In this document: piece by piece, positions 8,186 through 21,792 of the stretch
Layout: every line of letters starts with the position of its first letter
How positions within the stretch are numbered: the stretch's first letter is position 1
DNA from: a virus
IMG/VR virus record: IMGVR_UViG_3300029990_000062
Location: 1 to 21,792 of that record
Direction: 5' to 3' (one strand)
Length of the DNA stretch: 21,792 nucleotides
Notes under the pieces: generated by a model
The model's database searches: none
What the model saw: the letters and a program-made list of their open reading frames with translations, nothing else
What the model was told of the DNA's origin: nothing
Position numbers and translations under genes: made by a program

Positions 8186-8197
8186 GGACCCGGGTCC
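8186..8197. repeat. 12-bp perfect palindrome in the tail-tube leader
   Basis: GGACCCGGGTCC is a perfect 12-bp palindrome in the 94-nt gap before the tail tube start. A second short inverted repeat, GGGGC/GCCCC, lies at 8133-8147 right after the preceding stop. Either could form an mRNA hairpin shielding or terminating transcripts. Neither is followed by a clear T-tract, and in GC-rich DNA such palindromes arise by chance. Confidence 0.35.
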
Positions 8198-8207
8198 CTT
8201 TGCTCGC

Positions 8208-8213
8208 AGGGAG
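8208..8213 (+). promoter_or_regulatory. ribosome binding site of the tail tube gene
   Basis: AGGGAG lies 7 nt before GTG 8221. It lies inside any reading that begins at the upstream TTG 8200, so it favours GTG 8221 as the start. Confidence 0.6.
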
Positions 8214-8220
8214 CAACACA

Positions 8221-9006
8221 GTGGTCGCAGTCATCGATCCAACCACCTACGTGCTCGGGCCAGCGGCCGTGTACTACCGCGCCGTGGGGGTCCTCACCCC
8301 CTGGACCAGCATCGGATCCACCCTCGATGACGCGGTGATGCGCGTCACGACCGAGCGTTGGCAGCCGGACAACCTCAGCGGCGTCCCGGGCGCCGTCATG
8401 GGCCTCGACGTGCTGCGCAAGGTGAACGCCGAGATCGAGTTCACGATGCCGGAGATCACGGGCAGCAAGCTGGGCCTCGTCCTCCCCGGCGCCGCGATCA
8501 CCGCCGAGACCCACGCCGCCGCGGCCACGCCGTTGGCGACCACGCTCTCCGCCACCGCCGTGGCTGGGTCGACGAGCATCGCCTGCGTCGCGGTCACGAA
8601 CGCGGCGGTCGGCGACCCGATCTCCATCGCAGGCGCCGGCGGCATCGAGTACCGCACGATCACGTCCATCACGTCGCTGGTCCTCGGCTTCCGTGACCCG
8701 CTGCTCTGGGACCACGCCTCGGGCCAGGCCGTCGGCGAGCTCACGGGCGACTACCGGACCATGATCGAGGCGCCCCGCAACATGGGCCGGATCGCGGACA
8801 GCGAGTACCGCGAGTGGGCGCTGGTCGCGTCGAACGGCCGCGGCTACCAGGAGCTGCGCATCCCGCGGGGCATCAGCACCACGGAGTCGGCCGAGGTCAC
8901 CATCGGCGACTCCGCGCTGGCGGGTATCAAGGTGACCATCGGGGCTCGCTACCTCGGCTCGGACCTGACCCAGAGCCCCTTCAAACTGTTTGGCCCCGCC
9001 AACTAG
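8221..9006 (+). CDS. major tail tube protein with inserted beta module
   Basis: This 261-residue protein should polymerise as hexameric rings into the tail tube around the tape measure. It opens with VVAVIDPTTYVLGPAAVYYRAVG and has a central core typical of long-tail tube proteins: WQPDNLSGVPGAVMGLDVLRKVNAEIEFTMPEI near residues 50-85. The C-terminal part reads REWALVASNGRGYQELRIPRG, then VTIGDSALAGIKVTIGARYLGS. Between them, residues about 100-175 form a separable module (TTLSATAVAGSTSIACVAV, VGDPISIAGAGGIEYRTI, LLWDHASGQAVG). This module recurs in the spike and tail hub genes and probably decorates the tube surface. Position directly before the assembly chaperone supports the call. Confidence 0.85.
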   Translation: MVAVIDPTTYVLGPAAVYYRAVGVLTPWTSIGSTLDDAVMRVTTERWQPDNLSGVPGAVMGLDVLRKVNAEIEFTMPEITGSKLGLVLPGAAITAETHAAAATPLATTLSATAVAGSTSIACVAVTNAAVGDPISIAGAGGIEYRTITSITSLVLGFRDPLLWDHASGQAVGELTGDYRTMIEAPRNMGRIADSEYREWALVASNGRGYQELRIPRGISTTESAEVTIGDSALAGIKVTIGARYLGSDLTQSPFKLFGPAN

Positions 9007-9012
9007 ACCGGC

Positions 9013-9606
9013 GTGGACCCCCGCAGCGAGGATGCCGGGCTGGCCGGCATCCTCACCTTCACCATGGGTGGGCGCGTGCTGGTCGTGCCCACCCTCAAGA
9101 TCCGCCAGTCGCGGGAGTGGAAGTCTCGGATCGGGGCGATCGCGCAGGCGGTCGACATCCCCGACGGGGCCGACATGGCGACGACGATCGGCGCGCTCGC
9201 CAATGCGCCCATCGACGCCGTGCTGGCGCTCGTGCTGGCGTATGACACCGCCTGCGAGACACGCCCGGGCATCCTGGGCGGGCGCGACGCGGTCGAGGAC
9301 ATGGCGACCGATGCGGAGGCGTACGAGGCCTTCCGCCTGATGGTGATCGCGACCTACCCAAAAGCTCTGGACCTGCTCCGTTCGGCGGTCGAGGAATATG
9401 GGCCGCAGCTCCGCGTGGCGGCCATGCTGGCGATGCAGCGGATCAGCGAGACATCGAGCCGGGAGAGGCCTACGAATGGGCCCTCGCCCGATGGGGACTC
9501 GACCCCGACGCCCTTGAAGCCCGTCTCTCCGACGAGCAGTTCCTCATCCTCTGGACGCATGCGCAGCGACGGCTCCGGCGCGAGTCGGAGGAAGGCGTCC
9601 TCGTGA
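9013..9606 (+). CDS. tail assembly chaperone, upstream frame (gpG-like)
   Basis: This is the helper that keeps the tape measure protein soluble and recruits tube subunits, the equivalent of lambda gpG. The frame begins at GTG 9013, 6 nt after the tail tube stop, and is 197 codons long. Codons to about 9447 look genuinely coding (GRVLVVPTLKIRQSREWKSR, AFRLMVIATYPKALDLL, an amphipathic helix to AMQRISE). The remaining 50 codons turn into a Ser/Pro/Thr/Arg-rich low-complexity tail typical of an out-of-frame reading. Meanwhile the -1 frame becomes protein-like from the same point. The stop overlaps a GTG of the second frame. The native product is therefore probably a shorter protein plus a frameshifted longer one. 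Confidence 0.75.
   Translation: MDPRSEDAGLAGILTFTMGGRVLVVPTLKIRQSREWKSRIGAIAQAVDIPDGADMATTIGALANAPIDAVLALVLAYDTACETRPGILGGRDAVEDMATDAEAYEAFRLMVIATYPKALDLLRSAVEEYGPQLRVAAMLAMQRISETSSRERPTNGPSPDGDSTPTPLKPVSPTSSSSSSGRMRSDGSGASRRKASS
9357..9363 (+). promoter_or_regulatory. candidate -1 slippery heptamer C CCA AAA
   Basis: In the zero frame the codons read tac cca aaa gct, so CCCAAAA matches the X XXY YYZ slip pattern exactly. A -1 slip here enters the frame that ends at 9800 with no stop in between. However, the zero frame continues to look coding for about 85-90 nt beyond this point, so the true slip site may lie further downstream, near 9445-9470. I found no canonical heptamer there. Confidence 0.4.
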
Positions 9607-9800
9607 CCGAGCTGGGCGTCTACCACGGCTACATGACGGCCCGTGAGAAGGGCTACGGGGAGAAGCGAGCGCGCGACCGACGCAAGCACATGCCTGCGCG
9701 CGCTCGCTCCGATCCCAGCCAGATGGCCTCGGACCTCGCGAAGCTGGGCGCCTACGTGGCCGGCCCCTCCCCCGACGGTCCCATGAGCGGACCGCACTGA
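9603..9800 (+). CDS. tail assembly chaperone, downstream frame (gpT-like extension)
   Basis: This frame is the second part of the chaperone. As a stand-alone gene it would start at GTG 9603 (GTGA overlap) and give 65 residues. The same frame, however, is open and protein-like from about 9445, encoding EAYEWALARWGLDPDALEAR, SDEQFLILWTHAQRR and onwards into TELGVYHGYMTAREKGYGEKRARDRR. No ATG, GTG or TTG occurs in that frame between 9363 and 9603. The upstream half can therefore only be made by frameshifting from the 9013 frame, as in lambda gpGT. The likely long product is about 262 residues. The C-terminus is basic and then Gly/Pro-rich. The tape measure gene follows after one further gene. 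Confidence 0.65.
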   Translation: MTELGVYHGYMTAREKGYGEKRARDRRKHMPARARSDPSQMASDLAKLGAYVAGPSPDGPMSGPH

Positions 9801-9801
9801 C

Positions 9802-10257
9802 ATGGCGGTCAAGGGGCGGGCCAGGGTCGAGATCAACCGGGAGGCGGTCGCCGAGATCGACATGGCGATGGCCCGCGGGCTGGAGTCGCTGGCGTTCAAG
9901 GTGCTGCGAACGGTCCACGTGCCCGATGCCGCGCCATTCGGAGAGGGCCTGATCGAGGGCGGGGCATTCATGTCCTACGTGGATGGAAAGCGCATCGGGG
10001 GAGACCCGGCTGCCAAGAAGCCGCGGGCATTCCTGGTCCGGGGCAGAGGCGTCTCCGTGGCCGTCGGTTTCGGATTCCCTGGTCGGTTCCAAGAGCTGGG
10101 GACCGTGAACCAACCGCCGCGCCCGTTCCTCACCCCGGCCGTGATGGGCGTGGTCGGTGACGACGGCGCCGTGGAGGCGGCCCTGCGTTCGGCCTTCGCG
10201 GCGGCGCTCCAGAAGAAGCAGCGCAAGCTCCTGAAGTACAGCCTGAAGGCGCCATGA
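9802..10257 (+). CDS. HK97 gp10-like tail/neck protein
   Basis: This 151-residue protein begins one base after the preceding stop. The N-terminal half is helical (NREAVAEIDMAMARGLESLAFKVLRTV) and is followed by FGEGLIEGGAFMSYVDG, a strand segment VSVAVGFGFPGRFQELGTVNQPPRPFLTPAV and a C-terminal helix rich in Ala, Lys and Arg. The pairing of an 'F/Y-x-x-x-x-E-x-GT' strand with 'PPRPFLTPA' is the hallmark of HK97_gp10 family proteins, which normally lie with the neck genes before the tail terminator. Here the gene lies between the chaperone and the tape measure, an unusual place. The family call is recognition-based. Confidence 0.65.
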   Translation: MAVKGRARVEINREAVAEIDMAMARGLESLAFKVLRTVHVPDAAPFGEGLIEGGAFMSYVDGKRIGGDPAAKKPRAFLVRGRGVSVAVGFGFPGRFQELGTVNQPPRPFLTPAVMGVVGDDGAVEAALRSAFAAALQKKQRKLLKYSLKAP

Positions 10258-12683
10258 ACATCGGCGACATCTTCTTCGCGTTTCGTGGGGCGAGCGAGCA
10301 GCTTGAAGCTGACGCCAAGGCGGGTGGTGCGAAGGCGGGCGACGCCGGCGCCAAGAGCTTCGGTGACAGCTTCAAGAAGGGCGTCAAGGTCGTCGGCGGA
10401 GCGGTGGCGGCTGGCCTCACCGTCGCCCTGGTCGGCCGCTTCGCGGCGCTCGAATCGGCGACCGCCAGCTTCCGCCAAGAGACGGGGGCGACCGCGGAGG
10501 AGGCCGCCCGCGCGAGCAAGGCCATCAACGACATGGCGGGCGGCAACGTCCAGTCGGTCGAGGAGATCGGGCAGGCGCTGACCAAGGTCCACACCGATCT
10601 GGGCCTGACGGGAACCGAGGCCGAGAAGGCCACGGAGCAGTTCCTGAAGTTCGCGACGGCGTCCGGGCAGGACGCATCGGGCGCGGTCCTCGCCTTCGAC
10701 GACATCCTCGACGCCTGGGGCCTGACCGCCGCGTCCTCCGGCGACATCATGGACAAGCTGGTCCTGTCGCACCAGAAGTACGGCGGCTCGATCGAGGAGA
10801 ACCAGGCGGCGCTATCCGACCTGGCCCCCGCCATGCGCGCGGCCAACCTCACCTACGACGACGGCATCGGGCTGCTGAACCTGTTCGCCGCGTCGGGTGT
10901 CGACGCCTCGGCCGCGTCGACGGCCATGACCAAGGCGCTCACCAAGGTCAAGTCGCCCGAGGAGCTCAAGAAGCTCATCGACGACATCACCGCCACCGAG
11001 GACCCGCTGAAGCGGGCAGCCAAGGCGGCCGACCTGTTCGGCGTCCGCGCGGGCGCGAAGCTCGCCAACGCGCTCGCCAACGGCGGCATGGATGACTTCA
11101 AGGTGAGCGCCGAGGAAGCGGCCGGCGCCACCGTCAAGGCCGCGGATGCCTCGCTCACGATGGTCGACCGCATCAAGCTGGCGTTCTCGGGCTTCATCTC
11201 GGGCACCGTGGACCTGCTCGGCCCGTACGGCCCCCTGCTGACCGCGGTCGGCTCGCTGGGCACCCTGTTCGCGCCTCTTCTGGGCAAGGCGTTCTCGGGC
11301 TCGGTCGGACTTGCGGCGAAGGCCATCGCGGCTGCGGGCACTGCGGCTGGCATCACATTCGCGGGTGCCGAGGCGGGCGGCGGGATGCTGGGCGCGCTCG
11401 CGTCCAGGCTCACGGCCGCCCTGCCGGCGTTGCTGGCCCGGCTCGGCCCTTTGGCATTCATCGGCGTGGCGCTCACGCCGCGGGACACCGAGGGCGAGAA
11501 AGCCGGCCTCGCCGCCATGCGCGAGGAGCTGGCCCTGGCCCAGGCCCTGCGCGACCTGAGCAACGCGAGGGCCGGCGGCTGGACCCCCGAGCCGATGGCG
11601 GTCAAGGGCTCCATCCTCGATGAGGGCCTGTGGGCCGAGCTGATCGCGAAGTCCAAGGAGGCCTCCAGCGCCGCCAAGGCTGCGGTCGTGGACTGGCAGG
11701 CGCTCGGCGCGGAGCTGTATGGCGCGGGCGCCGAGGTCGGCCAAGCGACCGTCTCGCTCCAGCCGTACTTCGACGCGCTCGACGCGCTGATGACGAACGC
11801 CACCCGCATCGCCGTGCGCAAGGCCGCTGACGAGATGGCCCTGCTCGCACCGTCCTTCAAATCGGAGATCCAGGGGTCGCGCTCCACCATCGAGGGCGCC
11901 ATGGATGACCTGATGTGGGCCATCGAGCACCCCATGAAGCGCGCCAAGAGGACGGCCCAGGTCGAGGGTGACCTGACCGGGAAGGCCCTGGCGAAGGCGC
12001 TGCGGTCCACCAACCCCGACGTCCGCGCCGAGGGTGAGCGCGTCCGCGCCGTCCTCATCGCCGAGTGGGAGAAGCTCACCAACAGGACCTGGGACTACGG
12101 CAAGAGCATCAACCAGAACCTGGCCCGCGGCCAGAAGGCCAGCCAGCACGTCCCTGTCGATGCCGCGGAGACCACGGCGACGCAGGTCGCGGCTCCGTTC
12201 AAGGGCCTCGGCCCAGACATGTGGACCTGGGGCAACCGCGCGGGGATGTCGTGGGCGAAGGGTCTGACCGCGGCCACGCAGGCCGCGATCGAAGCGGGCG
12301 CGGGCGTGGTCAGAGCCGTGGGCGGGGTCTTTCGCGCGTCGTCGCCACCCACCCATCCGCTGAACCCGATGCGGGACATCGTCAAGTGGGGCCAGGCCAC
12401 CATCGAGGCCTACGGCACCGGGATGCTGAAGGGGGCCGCTGGACTCCCGTTCGGGGACATGTTCGGTGGTCTCGGGCTCACGGCGCCGGTGTCGCTGGTG
12501 CCCAGCATGGGCGCGTTGTCGGCCTACGGGGGAGGCATGGCGTCCTCCTCATCGTCGAGCGTCACCCACGGCCCCACGTACAACGTGAACGTCCAGGGGC
12601 TCATCCGCGCGGAGACGCCCGAGGACATCGGGCGTGCGCTGCGACGCGTCGGGCGGCTCGGCAACGGGGGTGCTCCAGCATGA
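10254..12683 (+). CDS. tape measure protein
   Basis: This 809-residue protein sets tail length and is expelled during DNA injection. The start overlaps the previous stop (ATGA). Residues about 60-290 form a TP901-type tape measure core: EIGQALTKVHTDLGLTGTEAEKATEQFL, FDDILDAWGLTAAS, then LSDLAPAMRAANLTYDDGIGLLNLFAASGVDAS and a DLFGVRAGAKLANAL segment. Residues about 320-410 are strongly hydrophobic and Ala/Gly/Leu-rich, the predicted membrane-inserting part. The rest is helical, and the C-terminal 60 residues are Gly/Ser-rich before a short VNVQGLIRAETPEDIGRALRR end. Using the rough rule of 0.15 nm per residue the tail would be near 120 nm, an estimate only. No peptidase or lysozyme domain is visible. 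Confidence 0.9.
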   Translation: MNIGDIFFAFRGASEQLEADAKAGGAKAGDAGAKSFGDSFKKGVKVVGGAVAAGLTVALVGRFAALESATASFRQETGATAEEAARASKAINDMAGGNVQSVEEIGQALTKVHTDLGLTGTEAEKATEQFLKFATASGQDASGAVLAFDDILDAWGLTAASSGDIMDKLVLSHQKYGGSIEENQAALSDLAPAMRAANLTYDDGIGLLNLFAASGVDASAASTAMTKALTKVKSPEELKKLIDDITATEDPLKRAAKAADLFGVRAGAKLANALANGGMDDFKVSAEEAAGATVKAADASLTMVDRIKLAFSGFISGTVDLLGPYGPLLTAVGSLGTLFAPLLGKAFSGSVGLAAKAIAAAGTAAGITFAGAEAGGGMLGALASRLTAALPALLARLGPLAFIGVALTPRDTEGEKAGLAAMREELALAQALRDLSNARAGGWTPEPMAVKGSILDEGLWAELIAKSKEASSAAKAAVVDWQALGAELYGAGAEVGQATVSLQPYFDALDALMTNATRIAVRKAADEMALLAPSFKSEIQGSRSTIEGAMDDLMWAIEHPMKRAKRTAQVEGDLTGKALAKALRSTNPDVRAEGERVRAVLIAEWEKLTNRTWDYGKSINQNLARGQKASQHVPVDAAETTATQVAAPFKGLGPDMWTWGNRAGMSWAKGLTAATQAAIEAGAGVVRAVGGVFRASSPPTHPLNPMRDIVKWGQATIEAYGTGMLKGAAGLPFGDMFGGLGLTAPVSLVPSMGALSAYGGGMASSSSSSVTHGPTYNVNVQGLIRAETPEDIGRALRRVGRLGNGGAPA

Positions 12684-21443: not shown

Positions 21444-21792
21444 TCATGCTGCGCCGCGTGCTGCGGTTGGTCGACGAGGGCCTACGCGCTCGTCTAGCAG
21501 CGCCTCCAGCCGAGGCTCCAACTGCGCCAGGATCGTCTCCATCGCCTGAGCGCTCAGCGCCGGAGCCGGTTCGTCCCCGTCCATCGCAGCCACGATCGCC
21601 GAGCGCCTGACGCCGAATGCTTCCGCCAACGCGCGGAGGTGGGCCAGACTCGGCTCGCGTTCGTCCCGGAACCATTCGTACATGGTCTCGGCCGTGGTGT
21701 TGATGGCCACCGCAAGTCCCCGGATGCCGCCCCGCTTGCGGTCCCAGTGGTCATCGACATAGGCGCGCAGACGGCTCCCGGTCGTGTCCGGT
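21444..21792 (-). CDS. XRE-like helix-turn-helix regulator, 5' end outside the window
   Basis: The minus-strand frame ending at 21444 is open to the right edge. A start at GTG 21710 would cut the DNA-binding domain. Reading on to the edge gives SRLRAYVDDHWDRKRGG, then IRGLAVAINTTAETMYEWF as helices 2-3, then SLAHLRALAEAFGVRRSAIVAAMDG. This is a complete XRE/Cro-C1-type arrangement, so the true start probably lies beyond base 21792. The C-terminal part, METILAQLEPRLEALLDER, could be a dimerising coiled coil. It lies upstream of the secreted-protein operon on the same strand and could be an immunity repressor or a host-type regulator. The HTH class is clear; its targets are unknown. Confidence 0.7.
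   Translation of the reverse strand, partial: PDTTGSRLRAYVDDHWDRKRGGIRGLAVAINTTAETMYEWFRDEREPSLAHLRALAEAFGVRRSAIVAAMDGDEPAPALSAQAMETILAQLEPRLEALLDERVGPRRPTAARGAA

Follow-up and report, generated by a model that had tools for sequence, protein, structure and literature searches.

Tail assembly chaperone frameshifts: phage lambda and a predicted case in the present locus

The slip heptamer of phage lambda in the G/G-T system is GGGAAAG. In lambda, the tape measure is bound by gpG and by the G moiety of gpGT, and the tail tube protein by the T moiety; the slip site is located near the 3' end of G (PMC5009743). Among actinobacteriophages, an annotated tail assembly chaperone frameshift is present in 2397 of the 3679 genomes of the SEA-PHAGES set (PMC10885494). 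The locus investigated here was found in IMG/VR virus record IMGVR_UViG_3300029990_000062, of which positions 1 to 21,792 were analyzed (21,792 bases; this whole stretch is referred to as the window). Very probably, the locus encodes two tail assembly chaperones on one mRNA by means of a predicted −1 ribosomal slip at the heptamer C_CCA_AAA, positions 9357–9363. The majority of ribosomes would stay in the frame that starts at 9013 (zero frame) until the stop codon at 9604, producing a short, G-like protein. We infer both the slip and its efficiency: a minority of ribosomes would slip back one base at the heptamer, where the Pro and Lys tRNAs would pair anew with CCC_AAA, and would then translate the −1 frame as far as 9800, giving a less abundant G-T-like fusion of 262 residues. 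Binding roles for the products can be proposed from position and by analogy with lambda: the N-terminal domain common to both products would coat the tape measure, and recruitment of the tail tube protein would fall to the −1 domain.

As in lambda G/G-T, the locus is located between the tail tube and tape measure genes, a −1 shift is predicted at a canonical heptamer, the predicted short and long products have a common N terminus, and the −1 domain has no start of its own. The initial annotation had likened the locus to lambda gpG/gpGT. This likeness is supported, and a −1 switch in a chaperone locus is supported, because the in-frame heptamer is conserved, −1-frame stops precede it in relatives, substitutions by codon position change frame, and synteny is kept. 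The locus differs from lambda in several respects. The heptamer is CCCAAAA in the window and CCCTTTA, CCCTTTC, or CCCTTTT in most relatives, compared with GGGAAAG in lambda. The slip site is placed 80 codons before the zero-frame stop, whereas the lambda site lies close to the end of G. One gene (9802–10257) intervenes before the tape measure, and there is no detectable sequence similarity to G/G-T. The 80-codon zero-frame remainder lies mostly over the −1 domain, where the substitutions among relatives follow the −1 wobble position. With the SEA-PHAGES actinobacteriophage chaperones the locus shares a joined frameshifted gene, which is predicted here. Unlike that set, its proteins had no match among 50,697 phage records, as determined by tblastn with both frames and the tail tube protein.

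Gene neighborhood

All features lie on the plus strand unless stated otherwise. A 268-amino acid reading frame with a TTG start (8200–9006) encodes the probable major tail (tube) protein. It gave a weak PHROG match to phrog_885, "major tail protein" (E 0.0013), and shares 57, 46, and 40% identity with its positional counterparts in the related loci L007, L009, and L011, respectively. TTG at 8200 is not certain as the start codon of this gene; it is overlapped by a CCCTTTG heptamer at 8196–8202, probably by chance. The GTG at 9013 is placed directly 3' of the stop codon of the probable tail tube gene. Downstream of the chaperone locus follow an ORF of 151 amino acids (9802–10257) with a weak match to tail completion/Neck1 families (phrog_5, E 1.2e-4) and, from 10254, the gene for the tail length tape measure protein (10254–12683, 809 amino acids; phrog_991, E 2.3e-24; PF10145, E 8.5e-17). 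The order of tail tube, this locus, and tape measure given initially is correct as far as the position between the two genes is concerned; the extra ORF at 9802–10257 was not mentioned there. In L007, unlike in the window, no gene separates the chaperone locus from the tape measure. Homologues of the extra ORF in L009, L011, and L015 are found upstream of the tail terminator, indicating a local gene rearrangement. A small ORF on the minus strand of the window (21444–21710) has a sequence that is reminiscent of the N terminus of a helix-turn-helix repressor.

The two reading frames

The zero frame starts with the GTG at 9013 and extends to 9606 (stop codon 9604–9606), encoding the G-like short product of 197 amino acids. 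Its protein consists of a conserved domain to about residue 117, a helix-like stretch to about position 9446, and a Ser/Pro-rich tail overlapping the −1 domain. The open stretch of the −1 frame spans 9246–9800, and the T-like extension comprises 145 amino acids (9363–9800, with the stop codon TGA at 9798–9800). As had been noted before, this frame has no ATG, GTG, or TTG between 9363 and 9603; the first such codon is the GTG at 9603. Its sequence suggests that the extension is entered by frameshift only. The predicted fusion (9013–9800) has 117 + 145 = 262 residues and 28.2 kDa, which agrees with the length of about 262 residues anticipated in the initial annotation.

The G+C content at zero-frame codon positions 1/2/3 was 0.70/0.50/0.94 in 9013–9356, 0.79/0.43/0.85 in 9364–9446, and 0.46/0.79/0.81 in 9447–9603. 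This switch at about 9447 confirms that the 9013 frame looks coding up to there and that the −1 frame is protein-like from there. The frame switch itself had also been assigned to about 9447. The change in composition does occur at that point, but the slip site most likely does not coincide with it, as the conserved heptamer is found about 85 nt upstream. The compositional switch marks the end of 9013-frame composition and most likely not the point of slippage.

The probable slip site

Relatives were collected first via the tape measure and then via the −1 domain itself, yielding 22 distinct loci with both frames. A canonical in-frame heptamer was present at the same aligned place in 21 of these, as CCCTTTC (n = 10), CCCTTTA (n = 8), CCCAAAA (n = 2, the window and L037), or CCCTTTT (n = 1). 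The heptamer of the window, C_CCA_AAA at 9357–9363, had been missed previously. It is canonical, is in X_XXY_YYZ phase with the 9013 frame, and corresponds to zero-frame residues 116–117. Judged from these alignments, 9357–9363 is most likely the slip site, about 85 nt upstream of the switch near 9447. L048 (~2950) is the exception; it has no canonical heptamer, and TCCTATTTC stands at the aligned place with both frames kept. This is either a contig error or another slip site.

The residues encoded by the heptamer vary among loci (Pro-Phe, Pro-Leu, and Pro-Lys). The exchange between CCCTTT and CCCAAA, which alters the protein and keeps the slipperiness, points clearly, as evolutionary evidence, to a frameshift that is used. 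The heptamer at 9357–9363 is far from a chance occurrence, because just one other in-frame XXX(A/T)3Z heptamer exists among the 4470 codons of the window, its codons are rare in this phage (AAA, 2.6% of Lys codons; CCA, 6.2% of Pro codons), and the site is retained in 21 of the 22 loci. CCA and CCT together account for 12% of the Pro codons of the window, and TTA for 0 of 374 Leu codons. In L014, L019, L034, and L036, a −1-frame stop codon ends 6–9 nt upstream of the heptamer, and these stops therefore set the left bound of the frame switch. The sequence C_CCA_AAG, one base off the heptamer of the window, has a high propensity to shift in E. coli (PMC5009743).

An in-frame CCCGGGC at 9264 was set aside as a slip site; every base of its slip codons is G or C, and relatives do not retain it at that position. 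No unusually stable RNA structure was detected directly downstream of the heptamer in 14 loci (z −1.6 to 0.8 compared with shuffles, for pseudoknot-free folds). With energies like those of the shuffles, such structure is not proposed as a stimulator.

Substitution patterns in the two frames and in their overlap

Substitutions were counted by zero-frame codon position in seven independent pairs of close relatives. The counts at positions 1/2/3 upstream of the heptamer were 117/91/227, favoring the zero-frame third position. In the conserved −1 domain the counts were 125/211/141, with the excess at zero-frame position 2, where the −1 frame has its wobble position. For the pair L009 and L027, the shift of the wobble position had a chi-square p value of 1.6e-7. 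The counts thus reveal purifying selection in the −1 frame 3' of the shift.

The stretch 9364–9446 is open in both frames and encodes the helix-like stretch in the zero frame and a Gly-Ala-Arg-rich linker in the −1 frame. The zero-frame G+C pattern persists here, and substitutions are even over the codon positions (33/38/42, seven pairs). Between the window and L007, 13 of 21 substitutions in the overlap were at the −1 wobble position (nominal p value, 0.007); this sample is small and was selected among several comparisons. Because the substitution data favor neither frame, the overlap may either be translated under constraint in both frames or be loosely constrained.

These data also bear on a frameshift with the slip near 9447, at the change in composition, instead of at the heptamer. 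Such a slip would be in line with the zero-frame composition and helix-like sequence that persist to about 9446, and with overlap substitutions that favor neither frame. However, there is no properly phased canonical heptamer near 9447 in the window, and it is the heptamer at 9357–9363 that 21 of the 22 loci retain. Furthermore, the distance from the heptamer to the conserved −1 domain ranges from 53 to 107 nt among the loci, so that no fixed site near the domain is apparent. We regard a slip near 9447 as improbable.

With the slip at 9357–9363, the approximately 28 codons 3' of the slip site could have a different role in each product: read in the zero frame, they would give the short product a functional helix, and read in the −1 frame, they would supply the fusion with a flexible linker. 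This is a tentative proposal that we consider possible but somewhat doubtful. If true, the two chaperone forms would have alternative, mutually exclusive C termini, rather than differing by simple domain addition.

Improbable alternatives: separate translation, sequence errors, and transcriptional slippage

The −1 frame could also be a separate gene whose translation begins at an unusual codon or through coupled re-initiation. The GTG at 9603 and the ATG at 9633 could yield a short C-terminal fragment, but the conserved ELYEW block precedes both codons. In all 14 loci scanned, the stretch from the heptamer to a point well inside the conserved −1 domain is free of ATG, GTG, and TTG, and a separate gene would leave the conserved heptamer unexplained. 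This possibility is less probable still than a slip near 9447.

A frame change in mid-gene usually signals an indel introduced by sequencing or assembly, an objection that the initial annotation had raised itself, and could likewise reflect a decayed gene. The same stretch is present in two other IMG/VR contigs, which differ from the window at 0 of 788 and 1 of 773 bases, and an indel error is very unlikely because both contigs carry the identical arrangement. All 14 of the first loci examined have their two frames in the −1 relation, and 20 diverged loci have the same frame relation together with the conserved slip site, which leaves indel and gene decay with a negligible probability. Transcriptional slippage instead of ribosomal frameshifting is similarly remote: runs of identical bases can make RNA polymerase slip, but the runs here are merely CCC plus AAAA or TTT, whereas the usual runs are much longer, and the X_XXY_YYZ codon phase is kept.

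Protein models and family searches

The structure model of the zero-frame protein had a mean pLDDT of 78 and showed a small hairpin followed by helices. It was confident to about residue 115 and weaker beyond, near the heptamer residues 116–117. The model of the −1 product began with about 30 residues of low confidence (low pLDDT), followed by helices. Pfam and PHROG scans with both frames from the window and 14 relatives gave no credible family. A PDB sequence profile search gave no match, and Foldseek against the PDB, with VIA-align as a second look, yielded nothing above background. In the Foldseek viral library, the N-terminal domain gave weak matches (E 0.011 and up), which included N15 GT (E 0.13) as well as several entries that carry the name tail assembly chaperone; these fold matches are suggestive only. 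Nothing significant was obtained with the −1 model in the same library. A search of genome contigs with the tape measure profile gave no match. Members of the chaperone family turned up here solely in viral contigs from metagenomes and in three metagenome-assembled genomes, and the relatives include Chloroflexi and Nanopelagicales metagenome assemblies.

Two relatives by tape measure, L013 (~2739) and L020 (~2923), have a different chaperone gene with a lambda-like GGGAAAC heptamer and the same layout. Their zero-frame remainder after GGGAAAC is 11 codons long, and the −1 frame comprises 111–112 codons. This suggests that chaperone modules have been exchanged beside related tape measures.

On the sequence evidence, the locus appears to be an orphan-sequence member of the lambda G/GT kind and an ordinary example of the tailed-phage chaperone frameshift. 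The understanding of tail assembly is unchanged by it. The locus adds a chaperone family from uncultivated viruses that is unmatched in the protein libraries used here, and the conserved slip site can serve to find such chaperone genes.
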